Below are positions 3,423-39,462 of a stretch of 64,000 nucleotides of DNA, piece by piece; the stretch's first letter is position 1, and each line of letters opens with the position of its first letter. The notes beneath the pieces are model-generated. The model had not been told where the DNA came from, made no database searches, and saw only the letters and a program-made list of their open reading frames with translations. The position numbers and the translations under genes were made by a program. The DNA is from Cymodocea nodosa (lineage: Eukaryota; Streptophyta; Magnoliopsida; Alismatales; Cymodoceaceae), in assembly GCA_036874045.1 (NCBI GenBank), contig CM072343.1, positions 11,490,001 to 11,554,000 of the forward strand. The letters run 5' to 3'.

Positions 3423-4396
3423 AAACTCTTAACATAAAGTAAAATTGCAAAAGATTAATTACATACCAGTTTGAAGCTTTGTTTTTAATAAATGGTTGTT
3501 GACGGATGAAGTTGAATCAACTACTTCTCCTTCCAATTCCCCAACAAATTTTCTTTTCTTTCCTCAATTGCTGGTAACTAGTAAATAACATTTTGTTCTA
3601 TATTTATAATGCACGTCCATAAGGCAAATGAATCTCGTTGTAAGAACATGTCTTGTAACGTGTAGTATGGTTCCTATTTTTAGGGATACGTATTCCACTT
3701 CTAATTTCAAATTTTAGTAACCACTAAACCCACGAAGTTTCATTCGTGGATAAAAGAATAATCGTTACACTAATTCCATGAACTAACCTCATTGAGTTAT
3801 AGATAACTCAATGGACTAGCCTCGGCTACTATTTGCTAACTCTACGGATTAACTTCGTTGAGTTACAAATAACTCAATGGAGTGACCTTATATTTTAATA
3901 TTGACCTCGTGGAGTTAAGGTTAACTCAACGAACTAACTTCATTGAGTTAACACTTAGCAAATTTTTCTAAAACTTACTCCTCGTATTGACTTCTATATT
4001 TTTTTCTGCATTTTATCAACTTAAATAAAGTTAAATACATTTCATTAATCTAGTGTTCTAATTTAAACTCATTTAAATCTGAACATTATATGCATATTTA
4101 ACTTACAATTCATTTCCTGTTATGTAGAATTTACATTTTGCTTTTCAATATGCAGATATAATCAGACATTAATAAATCATCATGCATTTATCCACATCAT
4201 TAATAAAATTGTAAAACTTTTAAAACAGTCCTACAAATCTTTAAACAATTATATAATATTCAATTCAATTCAGCTTTAAATCATTCATTCACAAACATTA
4301 ATTCAACAACATCTTGTTTCAAACATTCATATAAATAAATAGTTTATATTTTCATACAATCAGATATTTTTCAGTACAAGTAGACGAACTATAGTT
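3423..4396 (-). other. Spacer between accessory ORF and gag in element A
   Basis: Mostly non-coding. A cluster of TAACTCAACG-type motifs in both orientations lies at about 3780-3960. A TATAAATA box on the minus strand lies at 3601-3608, about 180 bp before the gag ATG. The stretch at about 3460-3700 keeps a reading frame shared with B 32801-33043 and ends at ACTGGTATGTAAT, a splice-donor-like sequence conserved in both copies. Confidence 0.45.
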
Positions 4397-6358: not shown

Positions 6359-7076
6359 CTTGTATCCTCGTGGTGTTACGGAATGGTTTCGATCTCTACT
6401 GTTCTAAGTTCTAAATGATTTCTATGGATAATGCCCCCAAATCTTAAGTTTTAGTATAAATAAACCCTAAGTTTTTGGCAGGTAATTAGGTCATTTCCCA
6501 CTCAAACTTTCACTCTCTCACTCACTTCTCCGTGGACTTACCATTAACTCTATAGACTAAGTTCGTGGACTTAACTACAGTACTTTGTTGAGTTATAGTT
6601 AACTCAACGAAGAAAGTTTGTTGAGTTATGCTTAACTCAACGGACTTCCCATATAGTTATACTAATAAAACAATGCAAATAAAATACTAAAACTTTAGTC
6701 TATATCGAAAAAAAAATTTTCGGTTTAATCGATTCTTGATTTTACTTTTCTTACTTCGTTTAAGCCATTATATTTTCTCAATTGAATCAAAATTAAATAC
6801 ATTTTATTTATTTATTTATTTATTTTTAGTTTAGTTTTATATTCGGTTGAACCGATACCTTGTTTCAATCAAACCGACACTTTTACTTAATATAATATAT
6901 ATTTTTTCCTTTTTTTTTTAGTTGCAGTCAAATCAATGGATCCTTTCGCTATGACTGTAACAAAGTTTTTTTCTTTTAATATATGTTTTGGTAAAATCGA
7001 TAATTTCTTTCGATTGAACCATTACTATATTTAAAATAAGTTTTTTTTTCTTTTTAAATAGTAAACATATGTATAT
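6359..7076 (-). promoter_or_regulatory. Candidate internal promoter between integrase and accessory ORF (element A)
   Basis: On the minus strand a TATTTATAC box lies at 6454-6462, 96 bp before the accessory ATG, within a block conserved with B (29829) and G (18482). Upstream are TAACTCAACG-type inverted pairs (6530-6660) and, further up, several CGGTTNAACCG-like palindromes (6720-7020). Promoter function is inferred from position and conservation only. Confidence 0.45.
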
Positions 7077-9696
7077 TTACTTAATAAAGCTCGAGTAATC
7101 CTTTACTCTTATTTCTTCTATAATTCCAAAGGTACTTTTTGGAATTTTCAAAATAAGTCTAAGTCTTTGTCCATTTACTTTAAATATATGTTGATATTTA
7201 GGATTTTCAATTTCAACGGCTCCATAAGAAAAAATATTTTGAATTATGTAAGGTCCTACTCATCTACATCTTAATTTTTCTAGATGGTTATGAAGTCTAC
7301 TCATGTAAAGATATACTTCTTGTCCTATTTCAAAAGTTTTTGAAATAATTTTCTTATCATACCAAAGCTTCATTTTCTCTTTTTCTTTTACAATTTTCAA
7401 ATAAGTTTCATTCCTAAATTCTTCTAACTCAATTAATTTCATTTTTCTATTTTCAGCACCTTAATTTAAATTAGTGTTCAAAGTTTTTAATGCCCAATAA
7501 GCTTTAAGTTCAATTTCAACTAGTAAATGGCAACTCTTTCCATATACTATTCTAAAAGGTGACATACCTAATCTTTTCTTATAAGCAATTCTATAAGCCC
7601 AAAGTGCATCTATTAATCTATTAGCCCAATCTTTTCTAGTAGGATTTACTATTTTTTCTAAAATTAACATAATTTGTTTGTTTTTACTTTCTACTTGTCC
7701 ACTTGTTTGTAGATGATATGATGTTGCAATTTTGTGATTTACTTCATATTTCTTCATTAAGGCTTCAAAACTTCTATTACAAAAATGAGTTCCTCTATCA
7801 CTAATAATAGCTTTAGGTATTCCAAATCTAGCAATTATATTAGTTTTTATAAAATGTATTACCACTTTGTTGTCATTAGTTTTTGTAGGAATAGCTTCTA
7901 TCCATTTAGATACATAATCCACTCGTAACAATATATAATTAAATTGATTAGACATAGGAAATGGACCCATAAAATCTATTCCCCACACATCAAAGATTTC
8001 AATCTCAATAATAGGGTTCAGAGGCATCATATTCCTCTTTGATATTCTTCCTATTTGTTGACATCTTAAACAACTTAAATAGTATTTATGAGCATCTTTG
8101 AATAGTGTTGGCTAATAAAATCCACATTGCAGAATTTTGGCAGTAGTTTTCCCTGAACCAAAATGTCCTCCACATGCTTGGTTATGGCAAAAAGATAATA
8201 TGCTCTGATATTCAGTTTTTGGAACACACCTCCTTAATACCAGATCAAGACATTTCTTAAATAAGTATGAGTCTTCCCAATAGTAATATTTTACTCTTGA
8301 AAAGAATAATTTCTTATCCTATCTATTCCAATTCTTAGGTGCTAATCTTGTAACTAAGTAATTAACTATGTTTGCATACCAAGGCATTGTATTTATGGTC
8401 ATTAATTGTTCATCAGGAAAATTATCCTTAATTTCAATGTTTCATTTTTCTATTTGTAATTTTGATAAATGATCTGCTACTACATTCTCAAAACCTTTTT
8501 TATCTTTAATTTCTAGATCAAATTCTTGTAATAACAATATCCACTAAATCAATCTAGGTTTAGTCTCTTTCTTTGCTATTAGGTGTTTTAAAGCTGAATG
8601 ATCCGTATATACTATCACTTTAGCTCCAATCAGATATGATCTAAACTTTTCTAAGGCAAACACAATAGCTAACAGTTCTTTTTCAGTAGTTGTATAGTTA
8701 ACTTGAGAATCATTTAAAGTTTTGCTTGCATAATGAATCACTCTAGGAGATTTTTCTATCTTTTGTCCCAACACTACTCTTACAGTAAAATTAGATGCAT
8801 CGTACATTAATTCAAATGGATGGCTCCAATTAGGTGCTTGTATTATAAGGGTTGAAATTAAGCTAGTTTTAAGCTTGAAAAATGCTTCTTTACAATTTTT
8901 ATCAAAGTTGAATGGGATATCTTTTAATAGATTAGTTAAAGGTCTAGTTATTTTTCTAAAATCTTTAATAAATATTTTATAAAATCCAGCATGTCCTACA
9001 AATAATCTAACATCTTTTACTGATTTAGGTTCTAGTAGATTAGAAATTACTTCTATCTTAGCTTTGTCAACTTCTAGCCTTTTCATTGAAGCAACATATC
9101 CCAAGACTATTCCTTGTTTAACCATGAAGTGACTTTTTCCCAATTTAGAACCAGATTGTTTTCCACACAACGTTTTAATACTTGGTCTAAATTGTTTAAA
9201 CATAGTTCATATGAAGTTCCATATACAGTAAAATCATCTATAAATATTTTTAAAAAATCTTCGATCATTCTAGTGAACATGCCCTACAAACACCTTTGAA
9301 AGGTAGCTAGTGTATTGCATAATCCAAATGGCATCCTCTTAAAAGCATAAGTTCCATTAGGACATGTGAAAGTTGTTTTCTCTTGATCCTCTAATACTAC
9401 TGGAACTTGGTTATATCCTAAATACCCATCTAGGAAATAAAAATATTCTTGCCCTGCTAACTTCTCTAGCATTTAGTCTATAAAAAGTAAGGGAAAATGA
9501 TCTTTCCTAGTCACACCATTCGGCTTCCTATAGTCAATACACGCACTCCAGTTTGATTCAATTTTAGTAGGTATCAAGTCCTGACTTTCATTCCTAATAA
9601 CTATTAATCCTGATTTCTTGAGAACTACATGGATTGGACTAACCCATGAGCTATTAGAAATTGGATAAATTATGTCATTATCTAACCATTTCACCA
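7077..9696 (-). pseudogene. pol: Element A polymerase: RT (3' part), RNase H and integrase
   Basis: Minus-strand segments read in order as RT, RNase H and integrase of Ty3/gypsy type. The RT motif is FIDDF in place of the FMDDF of copy B, near 9225-9255. RNase H shows ELMYDASNF and YTDHSALK. Integrase shows HNQACGGHF with CLRCQ, then GIDFMGP, ISDRGTHF and GQVESKNK, so the three acidic catalytic positions are still visible. It ends at a TAA at 7077-7079. Stops break the frame into pieces of about 60-220 codons. The 5' part of RT lies beyond solo LTR I, from 11402 on. Confidence 0.9.
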
Positions 9697-9701
9697 TTTC
9701 C

Positions 9702-11396
9702 TAATGGGATCGAATGGCACACTAGAGGGGGGTGAATAGTGTCCTAATCAAATTTATGTTACTTTTAATTTTTCGGAAGCTGTTGATACTAATGAACCCT
9801 AATTAATTGATTAATTAAAATGCAAAGTAGAAAGTAAATGACACAAAAGATTTTATAGTGGTTCCCAAACTAGGTAGTCCACTCCTCAAGGTCACAACCT
9901 CGAGAATTCCACTAAGTGCTTTTAAGGTTAAGCACAAACCTTAAACAAGTTACTTTTGCAGACTAAGCAACAACCTTATAGATGTGTTTATAGGCTAAAC
10001 AAAAACCTCATACATAGCACAAACTTTGTGTACTCAAGACCCCAATCTTGAGTAAGTGAAGAATCACACTTCACTCTTTTCACCAAGGCCCCAACCTTGT
10101 GAAGGTATAATCACAACACCCTTGTGAGTTAGGGTTTTCAAGCAAATGAGAAAATAGTTTAAACTCAGTCGTCACTGACTCAAAATGAATAAGACACACA
10201 ACACAAGATCAACTCCTATGAAGAGTTGATTTATGAAGCTTTGAGGAGAAATCTTGATTGATTTGTAGCCTTTAATCTTCTGAACCTTGTTGGAAACGAA
10301 TCTTTAGAATGTTTGTAGGATTGCTAAAAATCCAATTTCTCCTTTCGTGTGTTGAAAAATCTGTGTATATGTTTTTAGTTTTCTGCAAATCCTTTTTGTT
10401 CTTCCTTCGAGATTTGCATAGATGGAAAGAATTCTGAAATGGTTAGATGCCTTATGTAGTAATTCATTTCCAACAACATTCAATCATAATTAATTTGAGA
10501 TTTGCAATCAAAAGATATCTTACTAAAATAGTTAGTCAATTAATAACAGTTGTAGATTCTATAGAAATAAAATCTTCGAAGACTTTTAGAAAATCAGAGA
10601 CTTAGACGGCTAACCATCTGAAACTTAAGAACATTTTGGATAGTTAAAGCTAACATTCCAAAAGGTCACTTAAGTCATGCATTTAAATCAAAACACATGT
10701 CCTTTTGACACAATCGCATAAAACATTAAAAATAAACTATCCAATTAAGAAAATATGTTTCAGATACTTACAAAAAATAACTCTCTGAACCTTAAGGCAT
10801 TTCGAATAGTTACACACGTAACCTTTTGAAAAGTCACTTAAGTCAGAAATATTAAAAAATTAATTATCCAAAGCTTAAAACCAATTACGGATGCTTACTA
10901 AAGGTAACTCTCCAATTCTTAAGAGTCTTTAGATAGTTACATCATAACCTTTCAAAAAACCACTTAAGTCAAGTGATGAGAGCATGACATGTGTCCTTCA
11001 GAAGAAAGTAACCAAAAATACATTAAATCAGAAAACAACTATCTATCCGAAACTAAAGGGATTTCAGACACTTAGCATTAAAACCATCTGAATAGGGAAA
11101 GCATAACTCACCAAAGAGAAATTCTTTTCAGATAGTTACAAATATAACTGTCTGATCAACCAAGAGAGAAGGTTAACCATTCGATTTACCTATTTTGTTC
11201 AATGACTTGTATAGTAACTCTCCGATCAACCATTGAACAAGAATAACAACTTGTTGAAATCTAGTTTAAAAAATTCTAAATACATAGTAGTTAGACAATT
11301 GTAATTTCAGTAAAGTGACTGCTAAAATTATTGCAGAAATATTTAAAACACATGTTTTTCATCATCAAAATTAATTGATAAAATAATGAACTAACA
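9702..11396 (-). repeat. Solo LTR I (Ty1/copia, Sirevirus-like) inserted in A
   Basis: Flanked by a perfect 5-bp target duplication TTTCC (9697-9701 and 11397-11401) that interrupts the RT of A. The left end shares the AGAGGGGGGTGAAT block found at the same end of the C and E LTRs, so it lies in the same minus orientation. The left terminus is TA rather than TG, which fits a single G-to-A change. The other end is canonical (minus-strand TGTTAG). No internal coding sequence remains, so it is a solo LTR of 1695 bp. Confidence 0.85.
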
Positions 11397-11401
11397 TTTC
11401 C

Positions 11402-12672
11402 TTCCTAACTACTTCTTTAAGGTTTGGATTTAATCTCCTCTCAAGAATTCTAACTAGTTTAACATTCTCTTCTAAATATATATGGTGACAGCATATACTT
11501 GCACTTAACCCTTTTATATCAGCCATAGTCCATCCTATTGCCTCTTTATAAGTTTTTACTATAGCTTTTCATTTAGAAATTTGATCCTCTTTTAAATCTA
11601 AAGCAATAATGATTGGACATATTCGTTTTTCTTCCAGAAATATATAGGTTAATTCAAGAGGTAAAGGTTTTAAATCTAAATGTTGACCATTAGAAGCTAA
11701 AGCTCTTAATTTAACATTTTCATCTTCAATATTAATCTTTTCTTGATCTCCTTCTACATCTATGCTTTCACTTACTTCTAAAGCTTCAGAATCTAATTGC
11801 CTATTTAATTCTTCTTGAATCACATCATCTAGCATATCTCCTTCATCCCCTAGAAAGTCTATAGTATGTAAGGACATTTTTAATTTCTTAAACTTTTCTA
11901 GTTTGAAAATGTTTAATTGAATATCCTCATTACCTTATGCTAACTTCATCACTCTAATTTTACAATTTATAACAACCCCTAATGTTTCTAAAAATGGCCT
12001 TCCCAAAATTAAAGATGTATCATGATTCTAATGCTTAATTTGTTGGGAATCCAACAATAACACAATATCGATATGATATATGAAGTTTTTGATTTTTATT
12101 AGGACATCTTCTATTTTTCCTCTAGGGTATCTTATACTTCTATCAACTAATTGAATGACAGTCCTAGTAGGGATTAAGCCTTCTAATCCTAAGGATGCAA
12201 ATATATCACTAGGTATAACATTTATACCTGCACTTAGGTCTATTAAGGTTCTTTCTAAAATGGTATTTCCTATGGGCATGATATAATAGGGATTTTAGGA
12301 TCAGATAACTTTTTAGGAATTTGTGGCAGAAACAGGGAACTACTTTGCTCAGCTAAAAAGACTTTTCTTAAAACTTTTCGCTCTCTTTTCTTAATACACC
12401 AATCCTTAAGAAATTTAGCACAAGGTGGCATTTTTTGTAATAAGTCTAACAAAGGAATGTTAACTTGTACTTTTCAAAACTTTCTCTAATTTTTTCTTGT
12501 TTTTTAGGAAATGTTTGTTGTAATCTTTTAGGATAGGGTGCTAATGATTGTGATTTACAAGATTCTTTTTCTTTCATTTCATTCATTTGATCACTTTTAA
12601 TCTCATTTTCAGATTCAAATTTTTCTTCATTAATTTCTAAGTTTTTAGATATTACATTTTCATTATCAATTT
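11402..12672 (-). pseudogene. pol: Element A protease and start of RT
   Basis: Aspartic protease of Athila type. The usual catalytic DLGA reads DLSA here (LIDLSAGINVIPSD), a change expected to impair activity. Downstream signatures are VIQLVDRS, SIRYPRGKIEDVL and an acidic linker before RT. It is broken at several points. It retains EEKRICP, with a CGA arginine codon where B has TGA. The N-terminal linker (DNENVIS) is fused directly to LTR sequence at about 12672, marking a deletion of the 5' leader. Confidence 0.85.
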
Positions 12673-22263: not shown

Positions 22264-22560
22264 TCACAAGCCTCTTTGTCTTCGAAAAATATCAATCAGA
22301 GTATTTGAAATTTTCTTTGCAATTTCTGTACTAACTCTGTTTATCTGATCAAGTAATGCTTGATCTAAATCATCTTGAGAACCTTATGATGGTTGCTGTA
22401 AGAATTCAATATGTATGTCTGTATCTATACTTGTATGTATTTTTGTATGTATACCTTGTATATCTGTACGTTGCTATGTTTCTGTAAATTGTGAGGATTG
22501 TTGCTATTGTGGCTGTGACTGTGTTTGCCGATCCTGTTGTTGTTGTTGTCGGAGGACAGG
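22264..22560 (-). pseudogene. C-terminal end of the element E accessory ORF
   Basis: Continues the accessory ORF from the far side of element B (39463). It reads as a Gln-rich tract (RQQQQQDRQTQ) followed by a helical end finishing IDIFRRQRGL and TGA at 22264-22266. Element C ends the same way: Gln-rich, then ISDILRRGR. Three in-frame stops (two TAG and one TAA). The Gln tract is encoded by CAA repeats. Confidence 0.65.
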
Positions 22561-24583
22561 TGTTTAGAATGAAAAAGTGCATATTATTAATGGTTAAATG
22601 ATGGTTAATTGCATAATATTTAGCTTATCATATAAGAATTAAGCTATTAAGTTATAATTGCACTGTTATATGTTTTAATTGAAGAATCTGCTTAATTTGG
22701 GGGAATTAATGTTAATTTAGTACATTTATGAACTGTCAGTAAGTTGCAGGTTGTGAAATTCTTAAGTATCCAAATTTTCTGATATTTTCGGACAGTTATG
22801 TTTAACATACCGAACATATTCGGACAGTTATGTTTAACATACCGAACATATTCGGACAGTTATGTTTAACAGACCAAACATGTATCAGATAGTTATGTTT
22901 AAAGTGCCGAACAGTTATGTTTTGAGAGAATATTTTATTATTTCCTGAAGTACATGTGTAGAAACCATAATGAATAGACTTAAGTGGATTTTCGGTGAGT
23001 TAGCTGTAACTATCCGAAATGCAACTAAGCATCGGATAGTTAAGTCTGTAAGTATCTGAAATGCACCTGAGCATCGGATAGTTAAATTTATGCACGTGTT
23101 GAATTTAAATGCTTTAGAATATCAGGTGAGATGCACATGTTTAACTCGTTAAGTTAGCATAACTGCACGCGTTGAGTTACATGAATATTACACTAAGGTA
23201 ACGCGTTATGTTAGTAGCTTATTTCTTTATATTTTCTAATATGCTACTGTAGCGGTTGCAGAAACAGACAGTTGGAAGAGAAAAACCACGTTTGCTCATA
23301 TCACGTAGGAATTCAATCGCGCAGGGAGAAGAAAGCATCGCCGTTGATATGAATGAAGAAAATCCAACCGACCATTCAAGCAGAAGTAGTTACTACTGAA
23401 GAAATATAAAAGAAAAGAAGAAGTGTGTGATCGATGGGCGGACAGTGTGTGTAGAGGAGGATCGACGATGCAATTCTCTGAAGTACCACACCATCATCAT
23501 CCCCATCACCACACCATAATCACCAACCATCGAAGGTTTGTGAGGATACTTGTCTAATGTCGGGTCGATTCCGAGCGAAACACAGTGCCTGACAACCACT
23601 ATGAGGAGTGATCGCGTCGCGGGAAGGGAAGCCATTTTCACCAAGCGCCAACTCATATTTCAGGAGATCGTAAAGCTTTTAGCCTTAGCTTCAGGTTGAT
23701 GCCTGTATGCTGAAGAGGAGATCATCTTGCAATTCTAGACTCACGATTCTATAGGGAGAGGAGACAGGATTGTAAGTGGTTTAATTTTCAGTGGTGTAAT
23801 CGCATTGCAAGTAGTGTTGGAAGTATTTACTGTCAAGTGAGATTACTTTACATTTCACCTGTCGCCCATTTCCATGTTCATATTAAAACAAAAATACCAA
23901 AAACAATTTATCTATGTTTGTAAGTTGTATTTGAGTGTTGTATTGTTTGTTTTGTATCGTGATTATGTTATCTTTGTTAGTGTTGTGATTGTTTTATGTT
24001 TATTTTAGTTTTACAGTTTACTAAAATTGGTTAGTTCAAAAGACGTAAAGAATTTAATGGTTACTGTTTGAATTATCTGAATGTTAGTATTACTCAATGA
24101 TAAATCCAATGTTAACTAACATTAAAGAGCTTAATTGATGTTATTTACAATTTGTGGAATCGCCCAATGGTTGGCCGAATTCCTTTGTAAATAGCAGTAT
24201 TAAAAAGAAAAGTCAGGCTCATGGAGTTAACATAAGTCTACGAGGTTAGTCCGTTGAGTTAGCCATAACTCAACGAACATAGTCCGTTGAGTTAACTGTA
24301 ATTCAATGGAGAGCTTATTGAATATATAAATTTGATTTTTAACAAACGAACAGTTCTCAAGTTCGTCAGCAATTCCCTGTGGGATCGACCTGTACTTGCA
24401 CACTGATACAATAGATACTATGCACTTGTAGTTAAAGTACAAATTGAAATTAATATCTAAATTGTATTAAAGGTTGTTTGTTTACTTCTAAAAGAAAGAA
24501 TAGGCATAAAGATAAATTAACTAAGTAAAAACAGAAGTAACAAATCCAAGTTTTTCTAGTGTAGTACTGGGAAAACTCAAACA
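22561..24583 (+). repeat. 5' LTR of element B
   Basis: TGTTTAGAATG to CTCAAACA, 2023 bp. Carries three 32-bp units of CGGACAGTTATGTTTAACAT type (22789 onward; the 3' LTR has two), two GAGCATCGGATAGTT-type units near 23000-23090, CACGTG-type sites, a TATAAAAG box, and an inverted-repeat cluster of CGTTGAGTTA / TAACTCAACG near 24245-24312. Confidence 0.93.
23405..23412 (+). promoter_or_regulatory. TATA box in the gypsy 5' LTR
   Basis: TATAAAAG in sense orientation, conserved at 38388-38395 (3' LTR of B) and 16920-16927 (solo H). Its place in the LTR fits the U3/R boundary. Transcription start is inferred to be about 30 bp downstream. Confidence 0.55.
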
Positions 24584-24590
24584 AGTTTTA

Positions 24591-24608
24591 TGGCGCCGTT
24601 GCTGGGGA
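24591..24608 (+). other. Primer binding site of element B (tRNA-Asp type)
   Basis: TGGCGCCGTTGCTGGGGA lies 7 bp after the 5' LTR. It matches the 3' end of plant tRNA-Asp with one change (T for C), the primer used by Athila-type elements. Confidence 0.88.
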
Positions 24609-24687
24609 ATTGAATTGAATTAAGCAACTGTTAGAGCTGTTTCGTTTTAATAGCCAGAGTTGTGTGTTTTCTTTTGTAATTGAGAAT

Positions 24688-25457
24688 ATGGCATATGCTT
24701 ATGCTCAAAGATTTCAGAAACTTGTAATTAGCATATGTGAATTCTGCAATTCTGAAGGACACGACATTTCTGACTTTTTAAAATTGAGACATTTATAGAT
24801 GGTTAGATCCCATGAACAACAAATGAATTATCCTCAATATAATAGAGTCGAGTATGAGAATCCTATAGTTTACCCAACTGATGGTCAGTATAGAATGTGT
24901 AATATGATGAGAGACACTGAAGTTTGGGAGAGCTATGACAGATTGGAGCATAGTATCGAGCAAAATCTGGACAAACTGGAATATTTTGTGTGTCAACAAC
25001 AAGAAGTCAACCAATTAAACTATAAGGAGGCATATTCAGAACCTAAAAAGGATATAATTTATGAAACTGAAAAAATCATAAAGAAAATTGATCAACAAGT
25101 GAATGCAATGAAATTAGATGATCTGAAAAAAAATTAAAAGCATTAGACGAAAATGCAATGAAAATACAAGTTATGCAACAGGACAATGAAAATTATAATG
25201 TTATAAACCTGCATAATTTGCAAAATATACAGCAAATAGAAAGTACTAATGTAAGAGAATTTAAAGAATGCACTTTAAAACTAAAAGCAATTGAAGATCA
25301 TAATCATGAAAATGATATACAAAAACATCATGAAAGTAATGAAAATCTAAAAGATGTATGTGTAACATTAAGATCTGGAACTGATATACCACCAAGAACT
25401 CAAAATGAAAATGCTATGAAGGTAAGAGTAAAAATAAAAATGATAATGAAAATGTAA
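24688..25457 (+). pseudogene. gag: 5' ORF of element B: zinc-knuckle and TLRSG part of gag
   Basis: Starts at ATG 24688 (MAYAYAQRFQKL), not at the later in-frame ATG 24799. Residues about 17-30 read CEFCNSEGHDISDF, a CX2CX4HX4 zinc-knuckle pattern whose last Cys is Phe. A TAG follows shortly after. The rest is charged and probably coiled (LDKLEYFVCQQQ, IIKKIDQQVNAM), then a frame change and CVTLRSGTDIP near 25350-25390. The (T)LRSG motif normally sits at the Gag/protease boundary of Athila-type elements. What is missing is the capsid domain: it is found instead at 33071-34414. The protease frame follows after another shift near 25420-25450. Alternatively this is simply a decayed gag remnant. 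Confidence 0.6.
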
Positions 25458-25498
25458 TAGCTGAAAATCTAGAAATCATTGAAGAACAATCTGAATCT

Positions 25499-26485
25499 AT
25501 GAATGAAGCTAAAAATGATCAAACAAATCAACTGAAAGAAAAAGAGTCTTTGAAATCAAAATCTTTAGCAACCTATCCTGAAAGATTACAACAAACAATT
25601 CCTGAAAAACAAGAAAAAATCAGAGAAATTTTTGAAAAAGTACAAGTTAACATTCCTTTGTTAGATCTATTGCAGAAAATGCCACCTTGTGCTAAATTTC
25701 TTAAGGATTGGTGTATTAAGAAAAGAGAGCGAAAAGTTCTTAGAAAGGTCTTTTTAGCTAAACAAAGTAGTTCCCTATTTCTGCCACAAATTCCTAAAAA
25801 GTTATCTAATCTTGGAATCCCTGTTATATCATGCACCATAGGAAATACCATTCTAGAAAGAACTTTAATAGACTTAGGTGCAGGTATAAATGTTATGCCA
25901 AGTGATATATTTGCATCCTTAGGATTAGAAGGCTTAACTCCTAGTAGTACGGTTATTCAATTAGTTGATAGAAGTATAAGATACCCTAGAGGAAAAATAG
26001 AGGATGTCTTAATTAAAATCAAGAATTTTATATATCCTATTGATATTGTAATTTTGGATTCCCAACAAATTAAGCATAAAAATAGTGATACATCTTTAAT
26101 TTTGGGAAGGCCATTTTTAGCAACATCAGGGGCTGTTATAAATTGTAAAACTGGAGTAATGAAGTTAGCATATGGTATTGAGGATACTCAATTAAATATT
26201 TTTAAACCAGAAAGGTTTGAGGAGTTAGAAATATCCTTACATACCATAGACTTTTTAGAGGATGAAGGAGATATGTTAGATGATGTGATTCAAGAAGAAT
26301 TAAATAGGCAAATCAATTCTGAAACTTTAGAAGAAAGTGAAAGCATAAATATAGAAGGAGATCGGGAAGAAATTAATTTAGAAAATGATGATGTTCAATT
26401 AGGAACTCTAGCTTCTGGTGAGCAGCATTTAGAATTAAAACCTTTACCTCCAGAATTAATCTATATATTTCTGGAAGATAAATGA
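25499..26485 (+). CDS. pol: Aspartic protease region of element B
   Basis: An N-terminal charged linker precedes a retropepsin-type domain. The active site DLGA is at residues 125-128 (LIDLGAGINVMPSD), followed by VIQLVDRS, SIRYPRGKIEDVL and the flap/ILGRPFLAT segment typical of Athila protease. It cleaves the Gag-Pol polyprotein in the particle. The frame stays open upstream of the ATG for about 25 codons, so the true start is probably through Gag. It ends at a TGA at 26483-26485 that lies in frame with RT; copy A has CGA there, so this is a single mutated codon and not the natural end. Confidence 0.88.
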   Translation: MNEAKNDQTNQLKEKESLKSKSLATYPERLQQTIPEKQEKIREIFEKVQVNIPLLDLLQKMPPCAKFLKDWCIKKRERKVLRKVFLAKQSSSLFLPQIPKKLSNLGIPVISCTIGNTILERTLIDLGAGINVMPSDIFASLGLEGLTPSSTVIQLVDRSIRYPRGKIEDVLIKIKNFIYPIDIVILDSQQIKHKNSDTSLILGRPFLATSGAVINCKTGVMKLAYGIEDTQLNIFKPERFEELEISLHTIDFLEDEGDMLDDVIQEELNRQINSETLEESESINIEGDREEINLENDDVQLGTLASGEQHLELKPLPPELIYIFLEDK

Positions 26486-29328
26486 ACTTGTCCAATCATT
26501 ATTGCTTCAGATTTAAAAGAGTATCAAATAGCTAAATTAAAAGATATAGTAAAAAGTTATAAAGAAGCAATAGGATGGACTATGACTGATATTAAAGGGT
26601 TAAGTTCAACTTTATGCTGTCACCACATATATTTAGAAGAGAATGCTAAACTTGTTAGAAGTCCTGAGAGGAGATTAAATCCAAACCTTAAAGAAGTAGT
26701 CAGGAAGGAAATAGTTAAATGGTTAGATAATGATATAATTTATCCGATTTCTGATAGCTCGTGGGTTAGTCCAATCCATGTAGTTCCCAAGAAATCAGGA
26801 GTAACAGTTATTAGGAATGAAAGTCAAGACTTGATACCTACTAGAATTCAATCAGGCTGGAGAGTATGTATAGACTATAGAAAGCTAAATGCTGTGACTA
26901 GGAAAGATCATTTTCCCTTACCTTTTATAGATCAAATGCTGGAAAGATTAGCAGGGCAAGAATATTTTTGTTTCCTAGACGGGTATTCAGGGTATAATCA
27001 AATTCCAGTAGCATTAGAGGATCAAGAGAAATCAACTTTCACCTGTCCTAATGGAACTTATGCTTTTAAAAGAATGTCATTCGGATTATGCAATGCACTA
27101 GCTACCTTTCAAAGGTGTATGCAGGGCATATTTACTAGAATGACAGATGAATTTTTAGAAATATTTATGGATGATTTTACTGTATATGGCAACTCATATG
27201 AAGTGTGTTTAAGCAATTTAGACCAAATATTAAAATGCTGTGTGGAAAAAAATCTGGTTTTAAATTGGGAAAAGTGTCACTTCATGGTTAAACAAGGAAT
27301 AGTCTTAGGGCATGTTGTTTCTAAAAAAGGGTTGGAAGTAGATAAAGCTAAAATAGAAGTAATATCTAATCTACCAGAACCTAAATCAGTAAAAGATATT
27401 AGATCATTTCTAGGACATGCTGGTTTTTATAGAAGATTTATTAAAGACTTTAGTAAGATAGCTAGACCTTTAACTAATCTATTAAAAGATGTTCCATTTA
27501 ACTTTGATAAAAATTGTAAGGAAGCATTTTTCAGACATAAGACTAGCTTAATTTTGACCCCTATAATTCAAGCACCTGATTGGAAATATTCATTTGAATT
27601 AATGTCCGATGCTTCTGATTTTGCTGTAGGAGCAGTGTTAGGACAGAAGATAGAAAAATCTCCTAGAGTGATTCATTATGCAAGCAAAACCTTAAATGAT
27701 GCTCAAGTTAATTACACAACTACTGAAAAAGAATTATTAGCTGTTGTGTTTGCTTTAGAAAAGTTTAGATCATATCTGATTGGAGCTAAAGTAATAGTAT
27801 ACTCAGATCATTCAACTCTAAAACATCTAATAAAGAAAAAAGAAACTAAACCTAGATTGATCCGATGGATATTATTATTACAAGAATTTGATCTAGAAAT
27901 TAAAGATAAAAAAGGTTGTGAGAATGTAGTAGCAGATCATTTATCAAGATTACAAGTAGAAAAATCAAATATTGAAATTAAGGATAATTTTCCTAATGAA
28001 CAGTTAATGATCATTAACACAATGCCTTGGTATGCAGACATAGTTAATTACTTAGTTACTGGTTTAACACCTAAGGATTGGAATAGACAGAATAAGAAAT
28101 TGTTTTTCTCAAGAGTAAAATATTACTATTGGGAAGACCCATACTTATTTAAGAAATGTCCTGATCTGGTTTTAAGGAGGTGTGTTCCAGAAACTGAATA
28201 TCCGAGCATATTGTCTTTCTATCATGACCAAGCTTGTGGAGGGCATTTTGGTTCAGGGAAAACTGCTATAAAAATTCTGAAATGTGGGTTTTATTGGCCA
28301 ACACTATTCAAAGATGCTCATAAATATTGCTTAAGTTGTTTAAGATGTCAACAAATAGGAAGAATATCAAAGAGGAATATGATGCCTCTTAATCCTATTG
28401 TTGATGTTGAAATCTTTGATGTGTGGGGAATAGATTTTATGGGTCCATTTCCTATGTCTAATCAATTTAATTACATATTGTTGGGGGTGGATTATGTATC
28501 AAAATGGATAGAAGCTATTCCTACAAAAACTAATGACAACAAAGTGGTAATTCAATTTATAAGAACAAATATATTTGCCAGATTTGGAATACTTGAAGCT
28601 ATTATCAGTGATAGAGGAACTCATTTATGTAATAGAAGTTTTAAAGCCTTAATGAAGAAATATGGAGTAAACCACAAAATTGCAACATCATATCATCTGC
28701 AAACAAGTGGACAAGTAGAAAGTGCAAACAAACAAATTAAATTAATCTTGGAAAAAGTAGTAAATCCTACTAGAACAGATTGGGATAATAGATTGATAGA
28801 TGCACTTTGGGCTTATAGAACTACTTGTAAAACGAGCTTAGGTATGTCACCTTTTAGGCTAGTATATGGAAAGAGTTGTCATTTACCTGCTGAAATAGAA
28901 CATAAAGCTTATTGGGCATTAAAAACTCTGAACACTAATTTAAATCAAGTTGCTGAAAATAGAAAAATGCAATTAATTGAATTAGAAGAATTTAGAAATG
29001 AAGCTTATTTGAATATTGTAAGAGAAAAAGAAAAAATTAAATTTTGGCATGATAGAAAAATTATTCCAAAAAGCTTTGAAATAGGACAAGAAGTATATCT
29101 TATATGGCTAGACTCCATAACCATCTAGGAAAATTGAAATCTAGATGGGCAGGACCTTACATAGTTCGAAATGTTTATCCTTATAGAGCTATTGAAATTG
29201 AAAATCCTAAAAATCAGAATATATTTAAAGTAAATGGACAAAGACTTAAACCTATTCTGAAAACACCAAAAAGCTCCTTTGGAATTATAGAAGAAGTTAG
29301 AGTAGAGGACTACTCGAGCTTTACTTAG
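26486..29328 (+). CDS. pol: Reverse transcriptase, RNase H and integrase of element B
   Basis: Same frame as protease after the TGA; the long uninterrupted part runs 26582-29128. [14 protein letters not shown], the [11 protein letters not shown] motif and catalytic FMDDF at residues 195-199 (counted from 26582). RNase H: SDASDF with Asp 343, [19 protein letters not shown]. Integrase: zinc site His548, His555 and Cys583/586/589, then D618 (GIDFMGP), D677 (ISDRGTH) and E713 (GQVESANK), a DD35E spacing. The C-terminus with WAGPYIV follows in the next frame (29104-29328): one T appears lost near 29100. Apart from those two defects I see no damage, making this the best-preserved polymerase in the window. 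Confidence 0.93.
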
Positions 29329-29932
29329 TAAGAAATTAGTTTTGATGTTTATATCTTAAAAAAACAAAAAAAACATTAAAAATATATATAAAACATAAAA
29401 ATCGTTGCGATTCAACTGACTGGATCCATCGGTATGACTAGAACATAAAAAAATATGAATATTAATTTTCAGAAATTTTTTTGGTTTTACCGAAACATAG
29501 TATCGATTCAACCGAAAGAGAAAAAAAAAATAAAAAATATATAAAAAGATATATATTTAGGTTTGACCAAAACATAGTATCGGTTAAATCGGTAAAAAAG
29601 ACAGAAAAACTATTCTTTGTAATATTTTTATTATTATATTTGCTTGTACGGGGAGTCCGTTAAGTTACGCTTAACTCAACGAGCTTACTCCGTTGAGTTT
29701 TGAGTTAGTCAACGAGCTTATTCCGTTGAGTTAACTGTAACTCAACAGAGTACTGTAGCTAAGACCGCAGATTAAATAGTAATAGTTGGTTCGGAAAATG
29801 ACCCGATTACTCGCCTAAACTTAGGGCTTATTTAAACTAAAACCTAGGGTTTTGGGGGCATTATCCGGTAAATCATTTAGAATCTAGAATAGTAGAAATC
29901 AGAGCGATTTCTTGCTATTGTGTAACTCCACG
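29329..29932 (+). promoter_or_regulatory. Spacer with candidate internal promoter (element B)
   Basis: No gene. TATTTAAA at 29829-29836 lies about 100 bp before the accessory ATG, next to a telo-box-like AACCTAGGGTTTT. Just upstream (29655-29755) are several CCGTTGAGTTA / TAACTCAACG pairs. The first half holds repeats of AACCGAAACATAGTATCG and CGGTTNAACCG type. All three blocks are also present in A and G. Confidence 0.5.
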
Positions 29933-32141
29933 ATGAGGAAGATGATGCCTGAATTCTGGGAAGAGGCAGTTGACACCGCACAGTTTCTGAAGGAATCTAA
30001 AGAATGGCACACGCGCTAGAAGATTAGAAATACAACGAGAGAAAAAGAGTTACAGAAGGTAGAATATGAACTTTTTAGATTAAGAAAAATATTAGTAGAT
30101 TGTGGTATACAAATACCTCAGATAATGGAGACACGAATCAGAGTAGCAACAGAAATTGCAGTTAGCAAAGAAAGAAAAATCCGGCCAAACAATGAAGTAG
30201 CCCTAGAGCTAATTCAACGTAAAACTAGATTGTGGTTTAAGAAATGCATTGCTGGTCAAGGAAGTTGGGAAATATGGCGGTAGGAACAACAAGAGGCAAC
30301 TGAAGGACAAGAGGAGCCGACTACTGAAAGACCTGTTCCTGAGGAGCAGCAGCTTGGACCTTCAATTCCACCATTTAAGCCATTAGCACGAGTAGAAATG
30401 ATGGGGCCTTCGACTAAAGAAGAAAAAAGAGAATTTGCAGAATTGGTTCAAGTTGAGAAGAACCAAGGAGAATCAAAAGATTTGGTAGTGGCCAAAGCAC
30501 ACCTAGTGTTTGATGCAATTTACAAAAAGAGGGCTGCAGAAAAGTTGAAAGCCCAATATAAAATCAAATTAGAACAGCATCACGAAGCTACTGCCAGAAC
30601 TACTGCCAAACCTACTGCAAAAGGAGATGAAGCTAGTCCTTCGAGATTAGTAATTATAGGAAAAGTTAAACAGGAAGAGCCAGTACCTGTGGCTCGAAGG
30701 CCTATAGAGCCTATTTTTGTAGATTTAATTTCAGAAGATGAAGAGGAAGAACAGGCACAATTAATAAGAAAAAAGAAAGGAAAAGAAAAAGTGCCTGAAT
30801 ATGAGGAAATTAAATCTGAAGTACCAACTTTTACAGGGCCTGTGGAGCAGATTTTTATTAACCTGCTATCCGAATCTGAGGAGCAAGAGGAGCAAAGAAA
30901 AGAAAAAAATCAGGCTGAAATTAATCTACAGCTTGTACAAGAAGAAACAAAAATTAGGGCAGAAACTGAATTGCCCGTGACTCCATCCCAATATGTTATA
31001 GAATCAAAAAGAACAATAACAGAACAGATTGGTAGTTAGGAGGAAAAAGAAAGCGAAGAAAATGAAGAGGCTAAAAGAAGCTATTTGGACAAAATAATTT
31101 CATAGATTCCACTAAAGAACAAGAAACTCTTCAGCAATTTATGGAGAGAATTCAAGACAGAGTGGAGAGTTCTGCCGGCTCACCACCACAAACAGAAACA
31201 GAAATTCAGGAATCTGTGGAAAATATTCAAATGCAGCCTATAGAAGAGGAAGAGCAATAGCAAACCCCTCAGGAGCAACAAAGTCACCTTCCTGACCTGA
31301 CTGAAACAACAATTTTGAATGAAGTACATTTTTATAGTTAGGAAGCTTATACCAAATACCAAGAAATAAGGGGTTATGACATTATTTACAGTAGACCAGT
31401 AAATTGGGATGGAATGCAAGAAATCAAAGAATTATTTGAATTCCAAGGTCTACTGCAATTTATATCTCAAGAAAGAGGGCATGTAGTATATGAGAATTTA
31501 GTGCCCTATTTTTATGCTAATTTGAGAGAAAGAGAAGGAGCACTAATTTCAAACGTGGAGGAAGCTGATGTAAAGATAACACCAGAGCTTCTCCACAATA
31601 TTTTTGGTTTAAAGAATGAAAGAACAAAAATTTTGGAAGATACAACTACAGTTGAATGGACTGAACAGCAAATTAAGGATTGTTTAGCTATCGATCCTGG
31701 TGTGCCATTATTAAACAGATTGAAGCATTTAAATGGTAAAGCACACATGGTAGCTAACATTCTGATTAAGAATGTTTATCAACGACAGGGCCATGACATA
31801 GAATTAAGTCAATTTGTCAAATGGGCCACATATGCAGTTGTAAATAAGATCCAAATAAATTGGTCTGCAGTTTTTATCTCCAAGATGAAAACAGTGAAGA
31901 AGAAATTATTTTATGGAGATTTGATTCCACTGCTGATGGGGACTGTATCAATTTCACTAAATGGACATAAAAAATGATTAGATCAAGAACCATTTTAGTG
32001 AAAGAATACAGAAATTTTGTAGGTGTAGAACTAGCTGTACCTTCTAGAGGAATTATGGGAGTTGTAGAGAGGATTAATCAATTAGAGTTTCAATTAGAAA
32101 AACTCCAGAAGGAAGTAGATGAACTTAGGCATAGAGATTAA
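29933..32141 (+). pseudogene. Accessory ORF of element B (plant transposon protein-like)
   Basis: Starts MRKMMPEFWEEAVDTAQF. A helical N-terminal part (about residues 30-100: METRIRVATEIAVSKE, LIQRKTRLWFKKC) is followed by a long Glu/Gln-rich acidic linker, a globular domain at about 31390-31977 (SRPVNWDGMQEIKELFEFQG, ENLVPYFYANL, LLHNIFGLKNE, WATYAVVNKIQINW, KLFYGDLIPLLM) and a C-terminal coiled coil ending ELRHRD. The globular domain resembles PF20167-type plant transposon proteins and aligns with the accessory ORFs of copia elements C and E. Frameshifts occur near 31085 and 31970; most stops are TAG where relatives have Trp or Gln. No signal peptide or membrane helix. Role unknown. Confidence 0.75.
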
Positions 32142-33070
32142 ATTGTATTGTTCGTCTACTTATGTAAAATTGTATGATGTACTTATATTGTAATTGATTC
32201 ATATTAATGAATGTAAATTTTTCAGATGCAATTTTCATACGTGTTTTAGATGTGAAATGAATGGAATTTATTGAATATTATGTTATTGTGAAACTTTATG
32301 AATGAATATGTAACAGATTTACAATTTGCTAAATGACAGGATAACTACTTAAAAATTTCTGCATGTTATAAGGTAAAATGTAAATTCTGCATAACATAAA
32401 ATGACCTGCAAGTTAAATCTTTATATAATGCTCAGATTTAAACGTATTTTAATTAGAATGATGCATTAATGACATAGATTTAACTTTATTACAATTAGCA
32501 GAATGAAAAAAAAAGAACAGAGAGGAACTTATGAGAGTAAAACTTAGTTGTTGCCAAGTGTTAACTCAATGAAGTAAGTTCGTTGAGTTAACCGTAACTC
32601 CACTAGGTCAGTAATATAATATAAAGTCACTCCGTTGAGTTATTTGTAACTCAACGAAGTTAGTCCGTGGAGTTAGCAACAGTAACTGACTGTATTCTGT
32701 TGAGTTTTCTGTAACTCAACGAGGTTAGTTCGTGGATTAAGCAGAACAGTTATTCTTTTAACCATGAACGAAGCTTTGTCGGTTTAGTAGTTATCAAAAA
32801 TTGAAATTAGTAGTGGTACACGTACCCATAAAAATAGGAACCATGATGCACGTTGCAAGACACATTCTTGCAACGAGATTTATTCACTTTATGGATGCAC
32901 AATATATATACAAAATAGAATGTTATTTACGAGTTACCAGCACTTTTAAAAGAAAGGAGAAGGCGTTGGAGGAATTGGAAGGAGAAGCAGCTGATTCAAC
33001 TTCATCCGACAAATATTTATTGAATGGAAAGCTTTAGACTGGTATGTAATTAATCTTCTACTATTTATTT
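32142..33070 (+). other. Spacer between accessory ORF and gag in element B
   Basis: A cluster of TAACTCAACG-type inverted pairs lies at about 32570-32740. A TATATATA box at 32903-32910 aligns with TATAAATA in A, 160-180 bp before the gag ATG. Positions 32801-33043 keep a frame shared with A (KIGTMMHVARH, ELEGEAADSTSS) and end in ACTG followed by GTATGTAATTAAT, a splice-donor-like sequence. It could be a small coding exon or just a conserved leader. Confidence 0.4.
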
Positions 33071-34414
33071 ATGAGCACATGGACTCGTTCTCTAAGCACT
33101 AAACGATTAGTAAGAACACCTACCTAGGAATTTTCATTATAAAGAAGTACTGAAAAAATTTCTGAACTGAACTTTAATGAAATTCTTTGGGGTGTAGCTA
33201 ACCTTTCTTTAAAAGAGAACGTAGAGATGGCTACACCAGTAGAAAAACCATTAGGAGAGATTCTATATCCTAAATTAATTGATGAACCTTCATGTATTCG
33301 ATTGCCAAACTTTGAGGGAGATAGGTTTGAACTGAAATCTAATTATATTAGTCAATTACCACATTTTCATAGATTAGAACGAGAGGATGCCTATTATTTC
33401 CTTAGAGAATTTAACGAAGTTTGTCAAATGATAAAAATGCCGAACATGAGTATAGATGCTATTAAACTTAGATATATCCCTTTTTCTTTAAAAGACACAG
33501 CTAAGAGATGGTTATATAATCTGTCGCTTGATTCAATTTCTACATGGACTGAATTTTACTCTATTTTTCTGGAAAAATATTATCCAACACATCAAACGAT
33601 TAAAAAGAAGAAAGAAATATTAGTGTGTAGCCAAAAACAGGGTGAATCATTCTGGAAATATTTTGAAAGATTTAAAGATTTACTGACTCAATGTCTGCAT
33701 CATGCAATGAATAAAGTACAATTAATAGGTATAATTTATGAAGGCATAGATGTTTCAACGAAATCTTTATTAGAATCTACTTGTCAAAATGGATTTTTAA
33801 AATTATGTAGTGAAGAAGCATGGGCATATTTAGAAAATTTTGCAAAAAGAACTGTATAGTGGGAAAATTCGGTTGAAGCTATTGTAGATAAAAGAATATT
33901 GCCAAGAGGAATGAATGAAATAGATTCCAATACTATGCTTGACGTGAAATTAAATGAATTAACAAAGAAAATAGAAGAGTTATCATTAAATCAAAAGCTA
34001 GCAGAAAAGAATGCAAACATAAATGACTTAAATATTATTTATGCTAGAAACCAGAGAGATAACTTGGGAAATTCTTATCATCCTAATTGGAGAAATCACT
34101 CGAATTCATCTTAGAGAAACAATAATTTCCAGGGAGGAGAAAATATAAATGAGAAGAACATAAGTTATGAAGTATTAATTGAACAAGGAGCTAGAATAGA
34201 GAAATTAGAAAATATAATCCAACAAGTAAACAATCGTTTAGAATTTATATTTGGAAATGCTACAATTCAAAATCAGAATAGAAATATATCACTTAGACAG
34301 AAGGAACCAATGGAAGTTAGACCTACTAGAGGATTGCCAATACAAGCTATACCTAATCCTGTCAATAGAACGGTTAATGAAATTGATACCTCTTCTGGGA
34401 GGGCAGTTGAATGA
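33071..34414 (+). pseudogene. gag: Capsid-type gag of element B, downstream of integrase
   Basis: 448 codons starting MSTWTRSLSTKRL, a start shared with copy A. Capsid signature around residues 135-215: RYIPFSLKDTAKRWLYNL, TWTEFYSIFLEKYYP, GESFWKYFERFKDLLTQC, the pattern of Retrotrans_gag in Athila elements. It is followed by a coiled segment (LNELTKKIEELSL) and YHPNWRNHSN near residue 335, another Athila Gag hallmark. No CCHC zinc knuckle and no TLRSG; those lie in the ORF at 24688-25457. In-frame stops: TAG at 33857 (a Gln in relatives) and at 34112 (a Trp in the WRNH..SW pattern), plus others in the first 50 codons. Position 3' of pol is seen in A as well, so it is a family trait and not a local rearrangement. 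Confidence 0.85.
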
Positions 34415-34439: not shown

Positions 34440-34597
34440 GTATGTATATATGTTTTATTTATTTTTAGTTAATAGTATCGTAGAGTTAATTTTTAACTCA
34501 ACGAACTTAGTCCGTTGAGTTATGCCTTAACTCCACGAGGGTGTGCAGTAGTTATGTTAATTTTTGTCTCTACTAAATTTTTGTTTGTGTTTTACAG
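34440..34597 (+). other. Candidate intron between gag and F-box gene
   Basis: Begins GTATGTATAT and ends with a pyrimidine-rich tract and TTTTACAG, 9 bp before the F-box ATG. AT-rich, 158 bp, containing a CGTTGAGTTA / TAACTCAACG cluster (34483-34540). The acceptor AG is kept in copy A. Splicing is inferred only. Confidence 0.4.
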
Positions 34598-34606
34598 AAT
34601 CGACAA

Positions 34607-35746
34607 ATGGAATTGATGCAATTACCAATGGATGCAATAAGGGAAGTACTAAGTAACTTGTCAGCTAAAGATCTGTGTAGGCTATGTTGTGTATCAAAGG
34701 AAATTAAAGATTGTATTAAAGAAAAATATTTTCAGGGACTACAAGCCACAAAAATGACTAAGATTAGAGATGGATTCATATGGAGGTCATTTAATCGTAG
34801 TTCAAATACCCATGAATATCTGACTATGGAAGAAACTACTGGAATTCCACCCAATGCATTAGAAGGAATAAATCATATTATGGGGATAGATGAAGGATTA
34901 ATCATATACAAGACGAGACCAAGGTATGCAAGTTTATTATTACTTGATATTTTGATAAGAAATCCTATAACAGGAGAAGAATGGAACATAGGAAGACTTA
35001 ATAGATTTGAAGCACCAACTGTAAATTGTGGGTCAGCTTTGATATTTTCTGATAAATATTCTGCAATTCTTGAAAATTTATATTATTGGAGACCTACAGG
35101 AAATTGGGGTGAAGATTTACGCTTAAGTGTGTATGATTTTCTAAATAGATCTTAGAATGAAAATATTATGATATATCTAGGACAGAAATCATTAATTAAA
35201 CAAACACATGTCATACTTGATGGATATATATATCTAGTCACGTAGATATCATTAGCATATGGATCTGATTTATACATAGTGAGCATAGACAGTTATGATA
35301 AATATATAGAAATTTTATCTGTACCGAGTGAAATAGCTAAACCACCATCTACAGAATTTAATGAAATTCAAATAGGAATGTGGTATAATGAAGAAGATGA
35401 TCCTACTTTATGTCTGATAAGATGGTGGGATGAACTGATGAAATTTCAAATATGGATTATGGAAGACATAAATGAATGGAAGTGGGAAGAGAAGTATATT
35501 GAAATAGATGTAGAAATAGAAACTGCTACATTACCTTGGAACCAAAAAGGATCCCTTTCTGTAGTACATATCATTAATGGTAATACACTCGTATTTGGAA
35601 TTTATAATATATTGCATGTTTACAAATTAAGAAGGAACAAGAACTGCATTAAAACAGAATTAATAGTAAGAAGAACTATGCCTAAAAAGTTTGCTTGGAC
35701 TAATACATTTATTCCATTTGTTTCTACTTTTCAATCATGTTCTTAA
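34607..35746 (+). pseudogene. F-box protein gene carried by element B
   Basis: One frame of 380 codons including the stop. F-box at residues about 6-50 (LPMDAIREVLSNLSAKDLCR, VSKEIKDCIKEKYF). The rest is Trp-rich with repeated short beta-like blocks (RNPITGEEWNIG, MWYNEEDDPTLCLIRWWDEL, VHIINGNTLVFGIYNILHVY), reminiscent of F-box-associated domains, though I do not assign a family. F-box proteins recruit targets to SCF ubiquitin ligases in cytosol or nucleus. Two in-frame TAGs, at 35153 and 35243; copy A has TGG at the first. It lies inside LTR-bounded DNA and recurs in A, so it is element cargo, not a neighbouring host gene. Target unknown. Confidence 0.8.
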
Positions 35747-37439: not shown

Positions 37440-39457
37440 TGTTTAGAATGAAAAAGTGCATATTATTAACAGTTAAATGATGGTTAATTGCATAATATTT
37501 AGCTTATCATATAAGAATTAAGCCATTAAGTTATAATTGCACTGTTATATGCTTTAATTGAAGAATCTGCTTAATTTGGGGGAATTAATGTTAATTTAGT
37601 ACATTTATGAACTGTCGCTAAGTTGCAGGCTGTGAAATTCTTAAGTATCCGAATTTTCTGATATTTTCAAACAGTTATGTTTAACATACTGAACATATTC
37701 GGACAGTTATGTTTAACAAACCGAACATGTATCGGATTGTTATGTTTAAAGTGCCGAATAGTTATGTTTTGAGAGAATATTTTATTATTTCCTGAAGTAC
37801 ATGTGTCGAAACCATAATGAATTGACTTAAGTGGATTTTCGGTGAGTTAGCTGTAACTATCCAAAATGCATCTGAGTATTGGATAGTTAGACTTGGAACT
37901 CTCCGAAATGTTATTTTATGATTAAACTACTATTGACACGTGTCGAGATCTAGTAGATTTACTTAAGTTATATATCGGTGAGTTATTAGTAACTATCTGA
38001 AATGCATCTGAGCATCGGATAGTTAAGTCTGTAAGTATCCGAAATGCACCTGAGCATCAGATAGTTAAATTTATGCACGTGTTGAATTTAAATGCTTTAG
38101 AATATCACGTGAGATGCACATGTTTAACTCGTTAAGTTAGTATAACTGCATGCGTTGAGTTACATGAATATTACACTAAGGAAACGTGTTATGTTAGCAG
38201 CTTATTTCTTTATATTTTCTAATATGCCACTATAGCAGTTGCAGAAACAGATAGTTGGAAGAGAAAAACCACGTTTGCACGTATCATGCAGGAATTCAAT
38301 CGCGTAGGGAGAAGAAAGCATCGCCGTTGATATGAATGAAGAAAATCCAACCGACCATTCAAGCAGAAGCAGTTACTACTGAAGAAATATAAAAGAAAAG
38401 AAGAAAAAAAGAAGAAGTGTGTGATCGATGGGCGAACAGTGTGTGTAGAGGAGGATCGGTGACGCAATTTTCTGAAGTACCACACCAACCATCATCATCA
38501 CCATCACCACACCATAATCACCAACCATCAGAGGTCTGTGAGGATACTTGTCTGATGTCGGGTCGATTCCGAGCCAAACATAGTGCCTGACAACCATTGT
38601 AAGGGGTGATCGCATCACGGGAAGGGAAGCCATTTTCACCAAGCGCCGACTCATATTTCAGGAGATCGTAAAGCTTTTAGCCTTGGCTTCGGGTTGATGC
38701 CTGTATGTTGAAGAGAAGATCATCTTGCAATTCTGGACTCGCGATTCTATAGGGAGAGGAGACAGGATTGTAAGTGGTTTAATTTTCAGTGGTGTAATCG
38801 CGTTGCAAGTAGTGTCGGAAGTATTTACTGTCAAGTAAGATTACTTTACATTTTACCTATCGCCCATTTCCATGTTCATATTAAAACAAAAATACCAAAA
38901 ACAATTTATCTATGTTTGTATGTTGTATTTGAGTGTTGTATTGTTTGTGTTGTATCGTGATTATGTTATCTTTGTTAGTGTTGTGATTGTTTTATGTTTA
39001 TTTTAGTTTTATAGTTTACTAAAATTGGTTAGTTCAAAAGACGTAAAGAATTTAATGGTTACTGTTTGAATTATCTGAATGTTAGTATTGCTCAATGATA
39101 AATCCAATGTTAACTAACATTAAAGAGCTTAATTGATGTTATTTACAATCTGTGGAATCACCCAATGGTTGGCCGAATTCCTCTGAAAATAGCAGTATTA
39201 AAAAGAAAAGTTAGGCTCGTGGAGTTAACATAAGTCCACGAGGTTAGTCCCTGTGGGATCGACCTGTACTTGCATACTGATACAATTGATACTGTGCACT
39301 TGCAGTTAAAGTACAAATTGGAATTAATATCTAAATTGTATTAAAGGTTATTTGTTTACTTCGAAAAGAAAGAATAGGCATAAAGATAAATTAACTAAGT
39401 AAAAACAGAAGTAACAAATCCAAGTTTTTCTAGTGTAGTGCTGGGAAAACCCAAACA
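37440..39457 (+). repeat. 3' LTR of element B
   Basis: TGTTTAGAATG to CCCAAACA, 2018 bp. Nearly the same length as the 5' LTR but differing in structure: one fewer 32-bp unit, an extra segment of about 120 bp near 37890-38000, and a loss of about 125 bp corresponding to 24254-24376. TATAAAAG at 38388-38395. Confidence 0.93.
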
Positions 39458-39462
39458 ACAGG

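Follow-up and report, generated by a model that had tools for sequence, protein, structure and literature searches.

The genome of Cymodocea nodosa contains LTR retrotransposons in which the capsid gene lies behind the integrase. We read them, with a probability of roughly 0.78, as a plant Athila-like lineage of Ty3/gypsy elements with the order primer binding site (PBS), then knuckle, TLRSG motif, protease (PR), reverse transcriptase (RT), RNase H (RH) and integrase (INT), then capsid gene and LTR, whose Gag and Pol would be made separately; the name Athila-like refers to shared features and not to an RT tree. Element B, at 22561-39457 on the + strand of the window (the whole stretch of 64,000 nucleotides that was analysed), is a single insertion with the target-site duplication ACAGG at both ends. 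Its order is PBS, knuckle ORF, PR, RT, RH, INT, a Transposase_32-like ORF (T32), capsid gag, an F-box gene and LTR (Table 1).

Table 1. Features of element B and the interior of copy A, in window coordinates.
Feature	Position	Strand	Basis or remark
Target-site duplication ACAGG, 5' copy	22556..22560	+	Direct reading of sequence
5' LTR of element B, starts TG and ends CA	22561..24583	+	
Primer binding site TGGCGCCGTTGCTGGGGA	24591..24608	+	
5' ORF of element B: degenerate CCHC knuckle and TLRSG, capsid lacking; reading frame interrupted in B	24688..25454	+	
Protease region of element B	25409..26482	+	Asp_protease_2, E 0.0015, below Pfam cut-off
RT, RNase H and integrase of element B; frame changes near 29100	26486..29325	+	
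Acidic ORF of element B, function not assigned	30284..31036	+	
Transposase_32-like ORF of element B	31342..31974	+	PF20167, E 3.6e-8, below curated cut-off
Displaced gag of element B, stops inside	33143..34411	+	Capsid to 33856, ATG at 33227; C-terminal part without zinc knuckle, ends after PNP
F-box gene of element B	34577..35743	+	PF00646; C-terminal part with very weak FBA_3 match, E 0.8
3' LTR of element B	37440..39457	+	
Target-site duplication ACAGG, 3' copy	39458..39462	+	
Interior of copy A, INT, T32, capsid and F-box as in B; insertion about 9703-11391; 5' ORF deleted	389..12672	-	

A domain profile search places RT, RH and INT of element B in the order typical of Ty3/gypsy elements (Metaviridae), and the protease region matches proteins from named plants in a protein database search. 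Matches to RT_RNaseH, RT_RNaseH_2 and, weakly, RVT_3 overlap within one stretch, and ten scanned frames, covering part of the element, contain neither a chromodomain nor a separate second RNase H. GAG ahead of PROT, the Ty3/gypsy (Metaviridae) arrangement, is seen neither in B nor in the relatives sampled. The sole capsid domain found in the element (PF03732, E 1.8e-17) occupies 33143-33856 and begins about 3.8-4.1 kb past the ends of the integrase frames at 29125 and 29325; the first-pass annotation, which had put the capsid of B downstream of integrase, is thereby borne out.

The same annotation had described the ORF beside the primer site, a PBS which we take to be of tRNA-Asp type, as bearing a degenerate knuckle and TLRSG but no capsid, and both direct reading and profile search agree. 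In this 5' ORF (24688-25454) the knuckle reads CEFCNSEGH, its final Cys missing, and VCVTLRSG is also present. Complete CX2CX4HX4C knuckles occur in the 5' region of the locus L020 and of four copies of a second family (L010, L012, L019 and L028); the motif is intact in five of the nine 5' regions and carries a single substitution in the other four (B, L022, L025 and L026). Pooled pN/pS of the 5' ORF among B-type copies is 0.42 and 0.26. A six-frame profile search at maximum sensitivity, covering B's interior, the copies A and C of the window and the loci L009-L029, gave no capsid match between primer site and protease, by which a hidden capsid 5' of the protease was ruled out; the leader of the second family, about 1.1 kb long, likewise yielded none.

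The DNA tells the same story. When the stretch of B from PBS to PR served as a query, with the best 40 of 4798 candidates scored, 39 of the 41 long rows began at one of bases 1-24, reached the end of the query and matched at 87-100% identity without a capsid-sized gap, two started at 331 and 450, and no such gap was seen among the long rows. Eighteen of the 39 begin at base 24, the primer-site piece lying 12-147 bases farther out for eleven and being unlisted for seven. A capsid between PBS and PR, which the first-pass annotation had named as counter-evidence to its proposal, is absent from the sampled copies, part of the copies having been scored.

How far this order extends was read from the 374.6-Mb genome in which the window lies. 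The 23 loci read are top matches to the capsid profile (best 150 of 4640 candidates scored) and not a random sample; the genome searches scored the best candidates only, and conventional copies could be missed. The best eight matches were examined together with 1.5 kb of flanking DNA to either side, and in all eight the end of integrase is upstream of the capsid on the same strand. Readings of 20 kb at ten loci, five of them shared with the best eight, give INT and then capsid on one strand in every case; PR is in view at eight, at none of which the capsid is ahead of it, and LTR-like direct repeats surround the genes in seven of the ten. Stretches of 4.5 kb around the ten last rows of the match list comprise six with INT and capsid, three with T32, capsid and F-box (INT lying outside) and one with the capsid alone; a protease stands behind the capsid in none. 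Altogether, 19 of the 23 distinct capsid loci have INT upstream, three follow the B-type order with no INT in view, one (L039) is uninformative and none is conventional, no protease being found downstream of the capsid at any of the 23. An extra second-family copy in L027, outside this count, has INT upstream too.

Two families make up the ten 20-kb loci. Four belong to B's family, mostly at 85-94% amino-acid identity, with T32 in three and the F-box gene in four. The other six form the second family, which has the same order as B, integrases 54-61% and capsids 40-59% identical to those of B over the matched pieces, LTRs of about 1.9-2.6 kb where measured, and no F-box match in these six loci. 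Among the best eight matches the identities of this family to B are 53-62% for integrase and 45-50% for capsid.

Linkage between integrase and capsid was followed with DNA queries. That of B, with the best 27 of 8161 candidates scored, connects both genes at 20 of 27 loci, a figure that includes rows ending inside the capsid, starting inside the integrase or falling in two adjacent pieces; the other seven are partial, and 13 rows, the window's own included, have near-complete coverage. For the second family, 20 of the best 40 of 1146 candidates are linked (18 full-length and two diverged) and the rest are partial. Joining the match tables, with 149 of the 150 rows of one table entered, gives 16 INT-capsid pairs with the capsid 3.2-5.8 kb downstream versus one with it 11.8 kb upstream. 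Capsid and F-box form 21 pairs at a distance of 1.1-1.4 kb and one at 8.9 kb, and on opposite strands there are four INT-capsid pairs (within 15 kb) and three capsid-F-box pairs. The upstream pair, the four INT-capsid pairs on opposite strands and the pair 8.9 kb apart are provisionally taken for neighbouring copies.

Two second-family copies are bounded as clearly as B: the LTRs of L028/L029 are 95.3% alike with CTACA on both sides, and those of L018/L019 are 97.2% alike with AGATT on both sides; no clear target-site duplication was seen at L010/L011. Since LTR pairs and matching duplications enclose B, L028/L029 and L018/L019, the order lies inside complete insertion units. An artefact of assembly or annotation, in which tandem or collapsed repeats mimic a changed order, would have to reproduce these three bounded copies and an INT-to-capsid spacing that is alike across loci on many contigs. 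Repeats are admittedly difficult to assemble, and a large survey classed 8453 Ty3/gypsy elements as GAG-PROT-RT-RH-INT, 159 of them with no GAG identified, and set aside those of unexpected order as likely mispredictions (PMC6317226); even so, we regard such an artefact as very improbable.

The window itself holds further copies. Copy A, on the minus strand, aligns with B between 36085 and 25437, with capsid and F-box in the corresponding place, as had been noted for its capsid gag. A deletion that spans B 25437 to about B 24005, a point inside the LTR, has removed the 5' end of copy A, which is therefore uninformative on the 5' ORF. The proposal that the arrangement was amplified as a unit, for which copy A alone would be no proof, holds on the evidence of B's family, of the second family and of the three copies bounded by LTRs and duplications. 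Stops and frameshifts are present in both B and A. In the 3' LTR of copy A a unit of about 839 bases is apparently repeated three times in tandem (L009 4263-6868), and its LTR abuts copy C at about 14088. Copy C (window 14077-20714, minus strand) is 85-89% like A and is split by a + strand LTR at 16135-18136. Large direct repeats at 43475-45205 and 56429-58150 of the window (93%), and between L009 1-3343 and window 60636-64000 (89%), are probably other elements.

Is the displaced capsid gene a working part of these elements? We estimated omega codon by codon against copy A, skipping codons with gaps or stops. The capsid gives 0.15-0.21, the rest of gag, its less constrained C-terminal part, 0.28-0.42, PR 0.40-0.49, RT-RH 0.23-0.27, INT 0.22-0.30, T32 0.15-0.21, the F-box gene 0.31-0.34 and the stretch after it 0.65-0.85. 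The values of the capsid resemble those of RT-RH and INT. Between B and four close copies omega is higher than against A (0.32-0.61 for the capsid), which is expected from decay after insertion. Judging from these codon comparisons, the displaced capsid has evolved under purifying selection, and the value against A therefore indicates that it has been kept functional at its present position.

These values bear on a rival idea, in which the gag behind integrase stems from another element by nesting or capture and hitch-hikes in some copies, while functional Gag is supplied in trans by conventional elements. Stops inside the gag of B would fit it, as would the precedent of Arabidopsis Athila families without pol and hence non-autonomous (PMC2410132). 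Hitch-hiking does not readily account, however, for a gag at the identical place in two diverged families, for a capsid constrained at that place or for the lack of any conventional copy at the 23 loci read, and we consider it unlikely. The case of a nested insertion private to a few copies, raised by the first-pass annotation as a way in which its proposal could fail, was examined with the same outcome: gag occupies the same place in both families.

In a protein tree the two families' capsids from this genome form one group (87/81), separate from capsids of other sources. An order peculiar to a single amplified family, whose master copy lost its 5' capsid after gaining a second gag, would suit the size and similarity of B's family (best 150 of 6515 capsid candidates scored, all at 91% or more), but it is contradicted by the diverged second family with its common order, by the clustering of the two capsid groups and by the second family's capsid-free leader; it seems to us less likely still than hitch-hiking. 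A single origin of the capsid-last order is the simplest reading of these sequences, though not proof. The predicted structure of the capsid is all-helical, at low confidence (pLDDT 65.9). Among the 50 PDB rows listed for this model none is significant (best E 0.14), the top ones being HIV-1 CA, Arc and PNMA2; the capsid sequence, searched against the PDB, retrieved only HIV-1 CA (E 0.078 and 0.086).

Three findings go beyond the first-pass annotation: the F-box gene behind gag, the T32 ORF ahead of gag, and the spread of the arrangement through the genome. In B the F-box match (PF00646, E 2.2e-10) reaches 40.5 bits against a curated cut-off of 20.5. Its genomic copies, of which the best 150 of 5412 candidates were scored, are all at least 88% identical among those listed, with a recurring open frame of 389 aa, and among 68 candidates in the protein database none reached E 0.001. 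A complete knuckle is present in the downstream gag of L013 and one with a substitution in that of L029; the remaining second-family group has none, and neither has B's family, so that the motif is absent from the downstream gag of two of the three groups.

A palindromic motif, CCGTTGAGTTA / TAACTCAACGG, recurs in B, both within the LTR and at the borders of genes (window 24251-24284, 29657-29738, 32580-32712 and 34494-34512). It has 43 matches in the window at up to one mismatch, versus about one expected by hand arithmetic. In B's family these palindromes are present downstream of integrase, some 0.5-0.65 kb ahead of gag and in the interval that separates gag from F-box; similar boundaries carry them in L020-L027. 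They are rare in second-family loci (0-2 matches in L010-L012, L028 and L029), and five matches occur in L013, a locus also containing a B-type copy. We propose them as candidate control elements.

Elsewhere, in the proteins P0036, P0037 and P0042, the gag tail (...WRNHPN...PSQ..PNP), TLRSG and protease share one frame; the search that yielded them also lists proteins of named plants. In the capsid-last elements the downstream gag stops at PNP or shortly past it, and TLR(S/L)G and protease are found at the 5' end behind the knuckle, a comparison which locates the break, as far as sequence can tell, near the PNP/TLRSG junction. Traces of circular permutation between INT and gag were looked for in L028 and in B and none was convincing: no remnant of a moved LTR or leader was made out in L028, and B has only short palindromes shared with its LTR. 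The 5' ORF and the gag tail have no significant similarity (best E 0.28) that might be the trace of a duplication. The lineage as a whole may have arisen by duplication followed by complementary loss.

Several known systems offer points of comparison. In foamy viruses (Spumaretrovirinae), gag precedes pol, Pol is made apart from Gag and Gag has no Cys-His boxes. The likeness, should separate synthesis hold here, would consist in a Pol apart from Gag and in the lack of Gag Cys-His boxes in two of three groups; the present elements differ in that pol precedes gag and bears the knuckle, and they are not members of that group. Gmr1-type Ty3/gypsy elements have integrase before RT with gag still first, and thus share with the capsid-last elements an altered domain order, altered differently. 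A PBS that we take to be of tRNA-Asp type, a feature of the Athila lineage, was found in the copies checked. Further likenesses to Athila (OTA superclade; PMC6317226) are the PR-RT-RH-INT order, long LTRs, the lack of a chromodomain match in the frames scanned, extra forward ORFs before the 3' LTR and a gag of CA-...WRNHPN-...PNP type. The differences lie in a capsid placed behind integrase, a break of the gag frame near PNP/TLRSG, a knuckle that opens the pol-side frame and, in one family, an F-box gene. Some plant LTR elements have additional sense ORFs on the 3' side, env-like ones among them (PMC7264820). They too have a forward gene between pol and 3' LTR, but there the gene is added to a normal gag-pol, whereas here it is the sole capsid gene. 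The word F-box is absent from the main text of that review and of an orchid screen for extra domains (PMC9289625). Titles and the beginnings of abstracts in the open-licence literature gave no description of a capsid gene after integrase or of an LTR element with an F-box gene. Neither viral contigs with integrase or capsid nor bacterial and archaeal contigs with capsid contained relatives with DNA context.

LTR elements and retroviruses usually encode Gag ahead of Pol and make Pol, in smaller amounts, as a fusion to Gag. With the capsid behind the integrase, Pol could not arise from Gag by readthrough or frameshifting. For the working of such elements we propose, at even odds, a pol-first lineage with a nucleocapsid motif at the N-terminus of Pol and a separate downstream capsid gene, in which stoichiometry and Pol packaging would be achieved without a Gag-Pol fusion, one branch carrying in addition an F-box protein. 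Two translation units would be the simplest scheme: Pol would not be produced as a Gag fusion, Gag would be translated from its own downstream gene via a spliced or internally started RNA, and the Gag:Pol ratio would be set by the relative expression of the two genes. The knuckle at the N-terminus of Pol could bind genomic RNA and so draw Pol into particles, and the F-box protein of one branch could redirect host ubiquitin ligases. That a Pol made apart from Gag, and a Gag without Cys-His boxes, can work is known from foamy viruses. Elements of this kind would be lost from any survey in which domain order serves as a filter. A high-copy lineage that breaks the rule, with its capsid kept under selection, would be a natural test of particle assembly without a Gag-Pol fusion.
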